64,000 nt of DNA from Qipengyuania qiaonensis (GTDB taxonomy: Bacteria; Pseudomonadota; Alphaproteobacteria; Sphingomonadales; Sphingomonadaceae): NCBI RefSeq assembly GCF_019711515.1, contig NZ_JAIGNO010000001.1:124001-188000 (forward strand), read 5' to 3'. The notes beneath the pieces were generated by a model, which made no database searches, was not told the origin of the DNA, and worked only from the letters and a program-made list of their open reading frames with translations. The position numbers and the translations under genes were made by a program. Of this stretch, positions 59,065-64,000 are shown one piece after another; position 1 is the stretch's first letter, and each line of letters starts with the position of its first letter.

Positions 59065-59982
59065 TTGTCAATCCCCGATTATCAAACGCTTATGTTGCCG
59101 GTACTGCAATTAGCTGCAAAAGGGGAGTGGCGAGTTCCAGAAGCAGCTGAAAAGATTGCAGATCACTTTCAACTTTCACAAGATGAGCGTGATAAGCTAC
59201 TTCCGAGCGGCAAGCAGAGAATATTCCATAATCGCATCCATTGGGCCAAGTTTTACATGTCCAAGGCTGGGCTGATCGAAAGCCCGAAGCGAGGAATATT
59301 TACCGCCACTTCGGCGGGAAAAGCTCTTCTGGCGCAAGGTTTGCAATCTATCGACAACGAAACATTGAATCAGTTTCCTGAATTCGTTGAATTTCGCCTT
59401 GGGAATACGGGCTCAAGCACGCCGGCCATCGCGCAAGCTGCGGCTTCCTCGTCAGATGCTACCCCGGAAGAGCAGATAGACGCGGCACAAGCGGTACTAA
59501 AGTCGGCGTTAAGTTCTGACGTTTTGCAGCGAATACTGGATAATTCCCCAACATTCTTCGAAAATGTAATTGTCGAACTGTTGGTCGCAATGGGATATGG
59601 GGGGACACACGAGAAAGCCGCGCTCAGGCTAGGTAAGAGCGGCGATAATGGAGTGGATGGCGTAATTGATGAAGATCGATTGGGCTTGGACCGAATCTAT
59701 GTTCAAGCGAAGCGCTATGCTGCCGCCAATACCGTCCAGAGATCAGAAGTGCAGGCTTTTGTGGGCAGTCTCGTAGGCTTTGGCGCAAACAAAGGCGTGT
59801 TCGTCACTACCTCGACATTTACCAGTGGGGCGATTGGGTACGCGGAGCAGATCCCTCAACGCGTGATACTGATCGACGGCGCTCGCTTGACGGATTTGAT
59901 GATCGAACATGATGTCGGTGTAAGAGCTAGCCGCACAATAAAGGTTAAGCGCATCGACGAAGACTTTTTTGACGACCTATAA
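59065..59982 (+). CDS. Mrr-type restriction endonuclease
   Basis: A 305-residue protein with the N-terminal winged-helix Mrr_N domain (PVLQLAAKGEWRVPEAAEKIADHF, then LPSGKQRIFHNRIHWAKFYMSKAGLIESPKRGIFTAT) and a C-terminal PD-(D/E)XK nuclease domain. The catalytic residues are Asp198 in NGVDGVID and Gln214/Lys216 in VQAKRY (the Q-x-K form of Mrr), followed by EVQAFVGSLVG. Mrr enzymes cut methylated DNA. The start is a TTG at 59065 with AAAGGAG seven bases upstream. Base and codon use are clearly AT-richer than in the neighbours, which suggests acquisition by transfer. Confidence 0.9.
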   Translation: MSIPDYQTLMLPVLQLAAKGEWRVPEAAEKIADHFQLSQDERDKLLPSGKQRIFHNRIHWAKFYMSKAGLIESPKRGIFTATSAGKALLAQGLQSIDNETLNQFPEFVEFRLGNTGSSTPAIAQAAASSSDATPEEQIDAAQAVLKSALSSDVLQRILDNSPTFFENVIVELLVAMGYGGTHEKAALRLGKSGDNGVDGVIDEDRLGLDRIYVQAKRYAAANTVQRSEVQAFVGSLVGFGANKGVFVTTSTFTSGAIGYAEQIPQRVILIDGARLTDLMIEHDVGVRASRTIKVKRIDEDFFDDL

Positions 59983-59996
59983 AATGTGATCTCGCT

Positions 59997-60890
59997 ATGA
60001 CCTTCGGCGTTTTCATGCACAAGGATGGGTCGAAATACGACGACATCCCCGAGGTGCATTACCAGTTTCCGAAAAGCTATCTTAGCCGCGCGCAGCAAAT
60101 GGTCGGCGATTGGATTGTCTATCGCGAGCCGGTCAAGATTCCGAACTCCAAAGGCTTCTTCGCCGTGGCGAAAGTTGAGGAAATCATACCTGACCCGGCG
60201 GAGCCTGACCGCTATCGTGCGATCATCGAGAAAGGGAGCTATCTGCCTTTCGAGCCGACCGTACCGCATATCATGAATGGCGAGCAGGTTGAGCGTGGCG
60301 TGCTCAATGAGGAAGGCAGAGTATCCGGTCGCGCCCAAGCCGCCGTCCGCTCGCTTTCGCATTCAGACTTTGCGCGCATCGTATCGCTCGGCCTGCCGGA
60401 TGAGGATTTTCTGCCGCGCAGCGACGACGAAGTCGTCGAGGACAACCGCGTCCGCGACAATCAAACACCGTTCGAAATCGAGCGGCCCATCGTCCAGTCA
60501 CTCGTCTCCAAGCCGTTCCGGGACCGCGCTTTCCGCCGTGCCGTGATGCACGCCTATGATGGCCGCTGCGCGGTGACAGGCTGGAAGCTGGTCAATGGCG
60601 GCGGTCGCTTGGAAGCACAGGCCGCGCATATCCGCCCGGTCGAGCATGGCGGCCCTGACAGCGTGCGCAATGGCCTCGCACTATCAGGCACAGCGCATTG
60701 GATGTTTGACCGTGGGTTGATTGGTTTCAGGGATGATCTTGAAATTATGGTATCGCGTCAGGTCAATGATCCAGCGAGCGTCGAAGGCATCATCAATCGG
60801 ACCGGCAAGGCGATTGCTCCCCAGCGGGAAGCGGACCGACCGCATCCGCAATTCCTCGCGTGGCATCGCGAGCATTGCTTCAAGCATTAG
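59997..60890 (+). CDS. HNH endonuclease with an N-terminal domain of unknown type
   Basis: A 297-residue protein. The C-terminal HNH_2-like nuclease spans about residues 180-250: YDGRCAVTG (Cys191), AQAAHIRPVEHGG (His211), DSVRNGLALSGTAHWMFDRG (Asn225, His234). The N-terminal ~95 residues (EVHYQFPKSYLSRAQQMVGDWIVYREP...) have the look of a PUA/EVE-like reader of modified bases, but I cannot confirm it. The gene starts 14 bases after the Mrr gene, in a nearly operonic arrangement. Together they suggest a modification-dependent restriction unit. Confidence 0.83.
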   Translation: MTFGVFMHKDGSKYDDIPEVHYQFPKSYLSRAQQMVGDWIVYREPVKIPNSKGFFAVAKVEEIIPDPAEPDRYRAIIEKGSYLPFEPTVPHIMNGEQVERGVLNEEGRVSGRAQAAVRSLSHSDFARIVSLGLPDEDFLPRSDDEVVEDNRVRDNQTPFEIERPIVQSLVSKPFRDRAFRRAVMHAYDGRCAVTGWKLVNGGGRLEAQAAHIRPVEHGGPDSVRNGLALSGTAHWMFDRGLIGFRDDLEIMVSRQVNDPASVEGIINRTGKAIAPQREADRPHPQFLAWHREHCFKH

Positions 60891-61068: not shown

Positions 61069-62097
61069 CTACACCTTGTTCGGCTTGGGCGCGTAGAACA
61101 TGCGTTTGCCGTATTGGGCGCGCTCGCGCCAGTTCTGGGCGGTGTCCGGTCGCGGTCGCACGGCCGGGGGATCGAGCAGCAGGGTGGCGGCCGTGAGCCA
61201 GCGCATCGTCCGGCGGCGGCCGATCTGCCGGAAGCGGCGCGCGCATTGCAGGCGGGGGCGCAAGCCGGTCTCGAGCCCGGGCACCGCCTCGATGCCGAAC
61301 AGGCGCCGCAGCGTCAGCAATTGCGTCGCCAGCGCGCGCCGGGCGCGGCCGCCGGGGAAGAGCGCGGCGAGGGTCGCGGGGTCGAGCGGGCCGGTCGCGG
61401 TGACGAGCGCGCGCAGGTCGAGGACATGCCGCAGGTCGATCAGGCCGCGCCAGTAGTCGCGCTCCTGCAACTGGTCGTGCGCGATCAGGATCGCGGCCTG
61501 CAGGCTGGGCGAGGGCATGAGGACGCTCGCCCCGTGCAGGGTGGCCTCGGTGCAGAAGGGGGCGAGCTGCGCGAAGCCGGGCCAATGGTCGAAGGATCGC
61601 AGGCGGTAATGGATGTCGAGTCCGCCCGCATCGCTGCTGCGCTCGAAATTGCGGCCAGTGGCGGGGGCGGCGGACGGGGCGGTCGAACGGTAGCCGATCT
61701 CGCCCAGGATCATGCCGGCGAGGGTGGCCTGGCCGGGGGCGATCATCAGGTCGAGATCGGTGAACAGCCGGTCCGCGCCCCCGGCCGGATGCGCAGCGAG
61801 GACGACCGCGCCCTTGATCGGCATCGGCACGACCCCCTGGCTCGACAGCGCCTGCACCGCTTCGGCCAGCTGGCGCTCCATCATCGCATTGCGCCGCACC
61901 GTGCGCGCGGCGATGTGGGTGAGGAAGGCCTGCACCTCGTCGGGGACCGCGGGATTGCCATGCAGCGCCGCGGCGAGGGCGGGGGTGACGAGCGTGCGGT
62001 TGGCGAGCGCGAGCAGGGCGGCCCAGTCCGGCTCCTGCGGCACCGTCCCTTCGAGAGCGCGGCAGAGAACGCTCAGGATGCGCCGGTCAGCGGACAA
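61069..62097 (-). CDS. nucleotidyltransferase family protein (NTP_transf_5-like)
   Basis: A 342-residue protein with the family pattern MPIKGAVVLAAHPAGGADRLFTDLDLMI (the K-G...R-x-x-x-D-x-D metal site) and LDIHYRLRSF further on. Members occur beside HPr-kinase-like proteins in lasso-peptide and exopolysaccharide loci; in paeninodin-type clusters such a gene accompanies the lasso peptide kinase. The start is TTG at 62097, overlapping the kinase gene by 11 bases, which supports functional coupling. The acceptor is unknown. Confidence 0.82.
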   Translation of the reverse strand: MSADRRILSVLCRALEGTVPQEPDWAALLALANRTLVTPALAAALHGNPAVPDEVQAFLTHIAARTVRRNAMMERQLAEAVQALSSQGVVPMPIKGAVVLAAHPAGGADRLFTDLDLMIAPGQATLAGMILGEIGYRSTAPSAAPATGRNFERSSDAGGLDIHYRLRSFDHWPGFAQLAPFCTEATLHGASVLMPSPSLQAAILIAHDQLQERDYWRGLIDLRHVLDLRALVTATGPLDPATLAALFPGGRARRALATQLLTLRRLFGIEAVPGLETGLRPRLQCARRFRQIGRRRTMRWLTAATLLLDPPAVRPRPDTAQNWRERAQYGKRMFYAPKPNKV

Positions 62098-63208
62098 AAT
62101 GCGCCCCCAGCAATCGTCCGGCCGCGGCTGCGTCGGAATAGCCGATCGTCAGCGTTTCGGCGCGCGAGATCACCTCGACCATGGCGCGGATATCCGCGAC
62201 CGATGCCTTGCCCGTGGTCGATTTCGCCTCGCTGCAGAAGTGGCGCAGGCAATCGGTGCCGGACCATGGCGCGAGGCGCGCGTCGCCCTCGCTGCTGCGG
62301 TCGAGCCGGACGAGGGCGGCTATGTCCAGCGGCGTTTCCCGGACGGGCCGGCGCAGCGGAAGGTATTTCACCGTCACGCCGTCCTGCCGCTCGACCGGCT
62401 CGGCCCGACAGTCGCGCCAGCCGGTCGCGGCGATCATGGGCCAGCTGCCTTCCTTCAGCGTGAGCGGAAGGGCGAGTGGCATGCCGGTGCCCGAGCGGGG
62501 ATCGAACAGCACGATATCGTCGCCCGCAAGCGCCATCCCGCACTCGCCGGCGAACATGGCGAGCGTGGACTTGCCCGCGCCGGGGGCGCCAAGCAGCAAT
62601 ATCGCCCGGTCTCCGGCGACCAGGCATGCGCCGTGGAGCGCGATGCAATCGGTTTCCGCCAGGATAGCCTCGACCAGCGAAAAACGCAGCGCCGCGGCGA
62701 TTTGGTGGCGAGGGACCACCCGTGCCGGGCGATCTGCGACCCTGACGATCCCCAGGCCATTATGGGACCACACATGCGCAGTCGGCTCGCCGCTCGCGGC
62801 AGCAGGGAGATAGTCGAAGGTGTCGAACCACCCTAGGTCTCCGCCATGACCGGCGAGAATTGCCGCGCCGTTCCCGAGCGGGAGAGCGGCTCTTCTGTCC
62901 CCATGTGCCGATGAAAGCGTTTCGTGCGGAAACACGTCGATCAGGCCGGCGGCGGACCAATCGACGAGCAGCCGTTCGAGTTCGGCCACTCCCCCGGCGA
63001 ACACGGGGAGCAGCCGGTCACAGAGCGATTCCAGCGGCACCGGCTCCTGCAGGCGATCGAGAATTGCGGCCGCGGACGCATTCGGCTCGTAGATGGCCTG
63101 ACAGGTTTCGGCGAAGATCACCGGCCTCCCGTCGAGCATGACGAGCGTCGATCTTGCGCTCAATCCGATCGACAGCGGTGGGCTATCCAATTGCGCAGGT
63201 TCCCGCAC
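62087..63208 (-). CDS. PqqD-like domain fused to HPr-kinase/phosphorylase-like kinase
   Basis: A 373-residue fusion. Residues ~15-95 look like a PqqD/RiPP-recognition winged helix (AIYEPNASAAAILDRLQEPVPLESL, then LERLLVDWSAAGLIDV). From about residue 175 there is an HPrK-like kinase with the P-loop LLGAPGAGKST (207-215), LAGDDIVLFD, and the late TPLDIAALVRLD stretch. Kinases of this type phosphorylate the C-terminal Ser of some lasso peptides. The start is GTG at 63208 with a GGAG site. The N-terminal domain suggests that it binds a leader peptide. Confidence 0.84.
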   Translation of the reverse strand: MREPAQLDSPPLSIGLSARSTLVMLDGRPVIFAETCQAIYEPNASAAAILDRLQEPVPLESLCDRLLPVFAGGVAELERLLVDWSAAGLIDVFPHETLSSAHGDRRAALPLGNGAAILAGHGGDLGWFDTFDYLPAAASGEPTAHVWSHNGLGIVRVADRPARVVPRHQIAAALRFSLVEAILAETDCIALHGACLVAGDRAILLLGAPGAGKSTLAMFAGECGMALAGDDIVLFDPRSGTGMPLALPLTLKEGSWPMIAATGWRDCRAEPVERQDGVTVKYLPLRRPVRETPLDIAALVRLDRSSEGDARLAPWSGTDCLRHFCSEAKSTTGKASVADIRAMVEVISRAETLTIGYSDAAAAGRLLGAHFVR

Positions 63209-63336
63209 CCGACAGGTGTTCTCCGCGCGGCAACGGCGCCGCCGAAGCGACGCGCGATCGCCAGCGCATCGATGGACACCCGCGGTTCAACGGCGCCTTG
63301 CGGAGATCGGGAATTCCGGCGCGATGCCCTGCCGCC

Positions 63337-63702
63337 TCAGCGCCCTTCCTTCTTTGTTTTGCCGCCATCGCCTTTACCGGGATCGCCCTTGCCACGGTCG
63401 CCACCGTCGCCTTTGCCGGGATCGCCGCCATTGCCTTTGCCCGGGTCGCCGCCATTGCCGTTGCCGGGGTCGCCACCCTTGCCGTCGCCCTTGCCGCCGC
63501 CGTCGCCCTTGCCGGGATCGCCACCACCGCCACGGCCACCACCGTCACCGCCGGACGCAGCAATCGCGGGCGAGGAAAGCGAGGTAGACAAAAGCATCGT
63601 CATGACCGGAGGAACGGTCAGCGAATATTTGCCGCAGTCGGCCAGAAAGGACCGTCGATCGGTCTGCATTGCGCCCTGCGATTCGGAAGTCGATTTCACC
63701 AT
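63337..63702 (-). CDS. small exported Gly/Asp/Lys-repeat protein with twin-arginine-like signal
   Basis: About 121 residues. The N-terminus has TDRRSFLADCGKYSL (Arg16-Arg17), a hydrophobic stretch to about residue 47 and a likely cut after AIA, much like a Tat signal. The mature ~72 residues are almost only Gly, Asp, Lys, Asn and Pro in repeats of the type GGDPGKGD / GGDPGNGN. It is encoded just upstream of the PqqD-kinase and nucleotidyltransferase genes on the same strand. I do not know its function; a substrate of those enzymes is one idea. The ATG at 63702 has a GGAG site eight bases upstream. Confidence 0.72.
   Translation of the reverse strand: MVKSTSESQGAMQTDRRSFLADCGKYSLTVPPVMTMLLSTSLSSPAIAASGGDGGGRGGGGDPGKGDGGGKGDGKGGDPGNGNGGDPGKGNGGDPGKGDGGDRGKGDPGKGDGGKTKKEGR
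63360..63552. repeat. GC-rich tandem repeats coding for the Gly/Asp/Lys repeats
   Basis: Degenerate units of about 24 bases (best at 63414-63485, TTGCCGGGATCGCCGCCATT type on the plus strand) repeat head to tail inside the small exported protein gene, with shorter 9- and 12-base units on either side. They keep the reading frame. There are no spacers, so this is not a CRISPR array. Slippage could change the repeat number between strains. Confidence 0.8.
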
Positions 63703-64000
63703 GAGCTTCACTCCAAAGAGAGAAGCGAAGGAAGCGCCCAAAATCGGGTTTTGACAATCGGAATCGATCTGGCAGGGGCCACTCATCCAAAATAGTCAAA
63801 AAAGATTCACATATCCGACCGTCATCCTCGAGCGTCGGCAAGCGCGAGAATTACGGATTCTCGGGCAGACGGGGTCAAGCTCCGTCCATTCCGCGAGAGG
63901 AGAGCGATTATGCGCCGGACGGGGTCGGTTTCGCGGAGTCTTCTTAACCCGGACACGTAGGTGTTTGTTAACCCGCTCAGGGTAGGGCTTGGTGAGGGGG
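63703..64000. other. upstream region of the Gly-repeat gene, to the window end
   Basis: No gene is supported in this 298-base stretch. It presumably holds the promoter of the minus-strand Gly-repeat/kinase/nucleotidyltransferase unit. The octamer TTAACCCG occurs twice (63944-63951 and 63968-63975), 24 bases apart on the same face of the helix, and could bind a regulator. A further in-frame ATG at 63786 would lengthen the Gly-repeat protein but without a signal-like start. Confidence 0.4.

Follow-up and report, generated by a model that had tools for sequence, protein, structure and literature searches.

Three genes on the minus strand lie near the end of the window, which is the stretch of 64,000 nucleotides of the Qipengyuania qiaonensis genome analysed here (part of contig C11 of the 3.39-Mb genome, labelled G000). 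Between positions 61069 and 63702, open reading frame (ORF) calling gives a small precursor-like protein of 121 amino acids (63337-63702, minus strand), a protein of 373 amino acids with a GTG start (62087-63208, minus strand) in which a PqqD-like RRE (recognition element of RiPPs, the ribosomally synthesised and post-translationally modified peptides) is fused to a kinase of the HprK type, and a PF14907 nucleotidyltransferase of 342 amino acids (61069-62097, minus strand) whose first 11 bp, from a TTG start, are shared with the end of the fusion. The original prediction, made from the letters of this DNA, had described a repeat protein, an RRE-like/HprK-like fusion and an overlapping nucleotidyltransferase here, and both the reading frames and the domain matches agree with it. 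These three genes, referred to below as the cassette, are considered as a candidate system for modifying the small protein.

The small protein starts at an ATG at 63702, an in-frame ATG at 63669 being equally possible, and matches the leader profile with an E-value of 5.8e-26, being itself one of the 18 rows of that profile. A short N-region is followed by D-R-R-S-F-L, C-G-K-Y, a Pro-Pro stretch, S-T-S-L-S-S, A-I-A, A-S and a Gly/Asp/Lys tail, so ordered that the leader comprises a twin-arginine motif, Cys-Gly, Pro-Pro, a hydrophobic stretch and Ala-Ile-Ala. The conserved part, from DRRSFL to Ala-Ala-Ser (63553-63660, minus strand), is defined by an alignment of relatives together with 46 distinct strong leaders (E < 1e-9) among 56 distinct matches; 28 of the 46 had not been used in building the profile. 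Only Leu12, Pro24 and Ser42 (alignment columns) are identical in all 46. The arginine pair is present in 45/45 of those that have these columns, Phe11 in 45/46, and column 26 is always Ile, Met or Val, resembling the segment 'Px[L/V/I]' in the motif bound by RREs. The twin-arginine motif is close to the consensus SRRxFLK of the twin-arginine translocation (Tat) pathway (PMC3712460) and is followed by a moderately hydrophobic stretch, with a mean hydropathy of 1.42 over columns 18-34. A TatC gene is encoded in the window's genome, and the small protein is probably exported via Tat, in keeping with the Tat-like signal first proposed for it. The possibility that it is a chance ORF was rejected, the leader being conserved in sphingomonad and Rhizobiales loci.

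Column 42 corresponds to Ser50 of the window's protein (63553-63555, minus strand), the proposed phosphate acceptor. Every other Ser or Thr position varies among the 46 strong leader proteins, and Ser42 is kept even in a decayed-looking copy (L089). Their tails are of 18-119 amino acids, of which 10/46 contain no further Ser and 2/46 no further Ser, Thr or Tyr. In the window's protein the tail is encoded by a tandem repeat (63382-63531, minus strand) with a 24-bp unit, 6.2 copies and 74% matches, and the 71 residues after Ser50 include 37 Gly, 11 Asp, 10 Lys and a single Thr, with neither Ser nor Tyr; the mature repeat is indeed nearly free of Ser and Thr, as had been noted. Because it is invariant among the strong leaders, unlike the other Ser and Thr residues, Ser50 is the best candidate for the kinase target. 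Of the three targets envisaged originally, the serine after the cut (46/46) is accordingly the one favoured over the signal region and the tail Thr; a target within the leader stretch 'LLSTSLSS' is weaker, since a second leader group has lost these positions yet retains Ser42. Cleavage after A-I-A would place Ser50 at residue 2 of the mature protein, and cleavage after the first Ala of that motif at residue 4. The second Pro of the leader is 18 residues before Ser42, the equivalent distances counted from published motifs being 15 for the linear polyphosphorylated peptides (LPP) of Bacillota and 16 for lasso peptides (Pro-14 to Ser3). Comparison with relatives thus suggests, as the residue modified by the enzymes, a single conserved serine immediately after the export signal, a trait previously described for bacilli only.

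The tails have features of their own. An NNGxGN[GD]-like motif recurs in 25/46 of them, often followed by xDxxPG, and the window's repeat resembles an expanded relative of it. L133 (G276:C61) and L079 have small Cys-rich proteins, three in tandem, whose leader, RRxFL..TP, is related but fails to align at the Ser column. Pfam gave nothing for the window's small protein, and a single below-cut-off match for the 10 relatives scanned; with NCBIfam, four small-protein relatives (including two that belong to the split type discussed below) gave no match and the window's protein one below the cut-off.

In the fusion, the N-terminal RRE/PqqD-like domain covers approximately residues 12-94 (62927-63175, minus strand) and the HprK-type kinase domain residues 163-371 (62096-62722, minus strand). 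PqqD (PF05402) was matched by hmmscan with an E-value of 0.0012 and 19.6 bits, under the cut-off of 23.4, and scored 23.0 bits in the genome search (23.4 with neighbours in frame). With a profile of 15 fusion proteins, positions 5-87 find the lasso B1/RRE chain TbiB1 (5v1u; E 9.5e-5) and positions 187-232 find Hpr(Ser) kinase (3tqf; E 4.8e-5), the P-loop of the profile also being matched, with weaker E-values, by many unrelated ATPases. In the structure model (mean predicted local distance difference test score, pLDDT, 86.8) the N-domain consists of short strands and, after them, three helices, with a fold like that of phosphoenolpyruvate (PEP) carboxykinase and HprK behind it; PEP carboxykinases and HprK/P account for most of the best 50 of 506 fold matches. 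His192, Gly207, Gly210, Gly212, Lys213, Asp230 and Asp231 are invariant in 15/15 members. The spacing of these residues equals that in the motif published for BsfK, H148-G163-G166-G168-K169-S170-D186-D187, a kinase that phosphorylates Ser3 of a lasso precursor (PMC10368454).

The nucleotidyltransferase matches PF14907 above the gathering score (E 4.9e-27), and Lys95, Arg110, Asp114 and Asp116 are invariant in 14/14 relatives. Its model (pLDDT 88.3) is nearest in fold to ANT(2'')-Ia (E 7.7e-4) and other small-molecule nucleotidyltransferases; no convincing sequence relative was found in the PDB, the best E-value being 0.43. A homologue is present at 23/24 cassette loci within the surrounding 7 kb.

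Absence of a conserved small protein beside the fusion had been named as a finding that would refute the original prediction, but a leader protein adjoins the fusion at 21/27 loci, upstream or downstream, with the same leader and a different tail. These comprise 4/4 loci of G000, G102, G107 and G143; 13/16 of the loci L048-L063, where L048 belongs to G073, the frame at L056 lacks the arginine pair, L062 was matched in the kinase part only, and L050, L052 and L054 have no leader protein within the stretch examined; and 4/7 other loci with a full fusion in the class sample (present in G542, G382, G577 and G284, absent beside the fusion in G555, G508 and G276). In the class sample, 385 genomes in all, the fusion profile gave eight matches spanning both domains, and the leader profile matched 14 genomes, eight strongly, three with E-values up to 2.2e-6 and three weakly. 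Strong leaders are found in 6/8 of the full-fusion genomes, G276 having weak leader-like genes only and G508 none. Fisher's exact test gave p = 1.8e-10 for the strong leaders (6.4e-9 with the window's genome excluded) and 1.1e-11 when G276 and all 11 leader genomes were counted, values that serve only as a guide since related genomes are not independent. A further 16 fusion genomes were searched whole and all 16 contained leaders, from one to seven each; for 13 of them this is so by construction, because they had supplied rows of the leader profile, though the genomes had been picked by fusion and not by leader. The three that supplied none, G580, G582 and G585, have seven, six and three matches. 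Leader and fusion therefore occur together in 23/24 fusion genomes searched whole, one of these having weak leaders only. Extra copies of the leader on other contigs or far from the fusion, in G555, G577 and others, suggest that precursors are also served in trans.

The cassette is best read as a relative, in Alphaproteobacteria, of the LPPs of Bacillota, with probable export through Tat, with RRE and kinase fused, with no peptidase or exporter gene recognised as recurrent and with trans-encoded precursors as well as the adjoining one. We give a probability of roughly 0.63 to its being a RiPP-like modification system, combining leader binding, serine phosphorylation, a further transfer, Tat export and a Gly-rich surface product with precursors in trans. 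From the genes, domains, conservation and co-occurrence observed, the following chemistry can be proposed. The N-terminal RRE of the fusion would bind the conserved leader of the small protein, whereupon the attached kinase would phosphorylate the invariant serine after the leader, perhaps repeatedly. The nucleotidyltransferase may then add a nucleotide, or help to add a sugar, to the phosphate, which is the weakest step of the scheme. The twin-arginine part of the leader would route the modified protein through Tat, and general signal peptidase would cut near Ala-x-Ala just ahead of the serine; in this way the cell's own Tat machinery and signal peptidase could replace a peptidase and transporter encoded in the cluster. 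The Gly-rich tail would act at the cell surface or in the matrix, and precursors encoded elsewhere in the genome, whose genes are present, may be served by the same enzymes. As far as sequences can show, the proposal of a peptide-modification locus that acts on a small exported protein and is no lasso cluster is upheld, having withstood both of the refuting findings named with it.

Several observations weigh against this scheme. G508, a genome 86% complete, has no leader match among the 24 fusion genomes searched whole, and the weak leader-like genes of G276 lack Ser at its place, the weak matches of both G276 and G489 failing to align at column 42. Conversely, strong leaders in G311 and G319 and weak ones in G489 occur without a fusion match at an E-value of 1e-12. 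For the window's fusion by itself, the PqqD match does not exceed the Pfam cut-off, and no RRE chain is among the best 50 of 506 fold matches to the fusion model, so that sequence profiles and secondary structure are the basis of the RRE assignment. The leaders have no [Y/W]xxP motif as in lasso and LPP leaders, an aromatic residue standing instead 5-6 positions before Pro-Pro. When the 262 proteins within 7 kb of 24 cassettes are grouped, 11 clusters recur in at least three loci, and neither a peptidase nor an ABC exporter was recognised, mostly by eye, among them. Finally, in the host of the LPP system no effect of its nucleotidyltransferase could be seen (PMC13381572).

The published LPP system, described in May 2026 as restricted to Bacillota, consists of an RRE, an HprK-like kinase and an NTP transferase acting on a linear precursor, Ser3 of which is phosphorylated by LppK; phosphorylation is abolished in the S3A variant (PMC13381572). 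The cassette shares with it an HprK-like kinase with intact catalytic residues, an NTP transferase, an RRE and the lack of a cyclase, as well as a precursor in which the N-terminus is conserved, the C-terminus variable and a Ser placed at the acceptor position right behind the leader. Both are patchily spread, and LPP loci are frequently embedded in polysaccharide regions (PMC13381572). In LPP clusters, however, the RRE is discrete rather than fused to the kinase, the precursor is cut by a peptidase of the SpI type, which resembles signal peptidase, and an MsbA-type ABC transporter is encoded, neither of which was recognised (mostly by eye) as recurrent here. The leaders also differ, YxxPxVLxHQxIxFETxxS there and RRxFLxxCGxFxxxxPPx[IMV]..AxAxS here, and in the excerpts of that paper no twin-arginine motif is mentioned for LPP leaders (PMC13381572). 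Given the fused RRE, the missing peptidase and exporter and the different leader motif, the cassette is not filed as an LPP, yet it appears to work like one. The idea of a distinct system thus holds as regards lasso peptides and is qualified by a like enzyme logic already published for LPP (PMC13381572) and by a split version that NCBI models as the HPr-rel-A system. A possible parallel is offered by the redox enzyme maturation protein (REMP) chaperones DmsD and TorD, where a dedicated protein binds a Tat signal before export; the binder proposed here differs in carrying a kinase. In the literature searched, which left most subscription journals outside its coverage, no account of a Tat-leader RiPP or of this RRE-kinase fusion was found.

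It seems unlikely that the leader is a mere Tat signal of Gly-rich surface proteins, with the enzymes acting on some other target, such as a polysaccharide enzyme, and lying nearby through shared regulation. A sugar transferase does lie within 7 kb at 10/24 loci, PF02397 being confirmed in the five that were scanned with Pfam, and leaders also occur away from the cassette and in the three genomes without a fusion match, two of them strong. The sugar-transferase link is confined to nine Rhizobiales loci and one other, however, and is absent within 7 kb at the window's and five other sphingomonad loci, the three PF02397 genes of the window's genome all lying elsewhere; as several of the 10 loci moreover look closely related, the link is only a hint. 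The co-occurrence of leader and fusion in 23/24 genomes also argues against this explanation, and a plain Tat signal would need neither an invariant Pro nor an invariant Ser behind the cut. For the modification system itself, the sugar transferase near 10/24 loci and the placing of LPP loci in polysaccharide regions make a surface role plausible. Near the cassette at L056, L057, L059, L061 and L124, very large proteins are encoded that group together by similarity, and the one scanned with Pfam (L056) contains cadherin-like and Ig-like repeats.

The split HPr-rel-A system (NCBIfam TIGR04352/TIGR04353) likewise has a PqqD-like protein, an HprK-type kinase and a PF14907-type gene beside a small Tat-like protein. 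There PqqD is separate, and the precursor belongs to another family; the window's fusion matches TIGR04352 ('HprK-related kinase A') with only 43 bits, far under the curated cut-off of 200. At the kinase-only loci of the window's family (L011-L035), a profile search found a small Tat-like protein beside the kinase in 22/25, with Ser-x3-Cys right after the leader in all 22. These proteins, mostly of 114-170 residues, have a conserved body and often an SGFTCYASLQ-like end. Their regularity would fit the view that split system and fusion are one system for protein phosphorylation before Tat export, and not for a peptide natural product, which we nevertheless regard as improbable. In the class sample, the same profile has a match at only 1/22 kinase loci, again in the window's own family, so this partner may be lineage-bound. 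The mature parts of the split type are long and conserved, as against the variable Gly-rich tails of the fusion type, the leaders differ, and the check with NCBI models covers two of the split loci. In sphingomonads, the small Tat-like protein is a candidate partner of the HPr-rel-A system.

The kinase and nucleotidyltransferase families are those of the paeninodin, pseudomycoidin (PMC9266682) and Bsf (PMC10368454) clusters, the likeness to BsfK extending to its catalytic residues and their spacing, and in the Bsf system an RRE (BsfB1) stimulates phosphorylation (PMC10368454). That the cassette is such a lasso tailoring pair split off from its lasso genes can be given very little credence, since in place of a cyclase, B2 peptidase and lasso leader motif there is a Tat-type leader with a Gly-rich tail, and no cyclase or B2 gene was recognised near the cassette or among the 11 recurring clusters. 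A lasso-type cluster does exist on contig C22 (about 214.7-222 kb; L040, 8.8-16 kb), with Transglut_core3, Asn-synthase-like and S9 peptidase genes (Pfam) and, by eye, one like a TonB receptor. It holds the only B2-type (PF13471) match of the genome and is not linked to the cassette, and reading the cassette as a lasso cluster is disfavoured for that reason. Past position 64000, where a complete lasso cluster would have spoken against the original prediction, there are a Tad-domain protein (Pfam) and genes that by eye resemble those of pilus and proline biosynthesis.

The two enzyme genes have a G+C content of 67-73% in 1-kb windows, the flanks 50-63%. A full-length fusion is found in only 5/199 genomes of the window's family (G000, G073, G102, G107 and G143), and three other listed genomes of the same genus gave kinase-domain matches only. 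The cassette looks like a patchily spread, acquired unit. Genes for Mrr-type and HNH_2 nucleases adjoin it (59065-60890 in the window, approximately 50-60% G+C) and may mark a spot of gene exchange.

A wider interpretation is possible and is put forward tentatively. The cassette may represent a family of Tat-exported phospho-RiPPs across the Alphaproteobacteria, in which the leader would double as RRE dock and Tat signal, several precursors scattered in the genome would be modified before export by one RRE-kinase fusion together with the nucleotidyltransferase, and the nucleotide or sugar on the tagged serine would couple Gly-rich proteins to surface polysaccharide, with the split HPr-rel-A system as a second branch. 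LPP peptides were reported from Bacillota, and an alphaproteobacterial branch would offer simpler material, with fewer genes, a fused RRE and kinase and precursors in trans. Such a branch would help in asking which products the kinase and nucleotidyltransferase give, what role these have and whether one sequence can serve as Tat signal and RiPP leader at once. For the HPr-rel-A system as it occurs in sphingomonads, it would also supply a substrate that can be tested.

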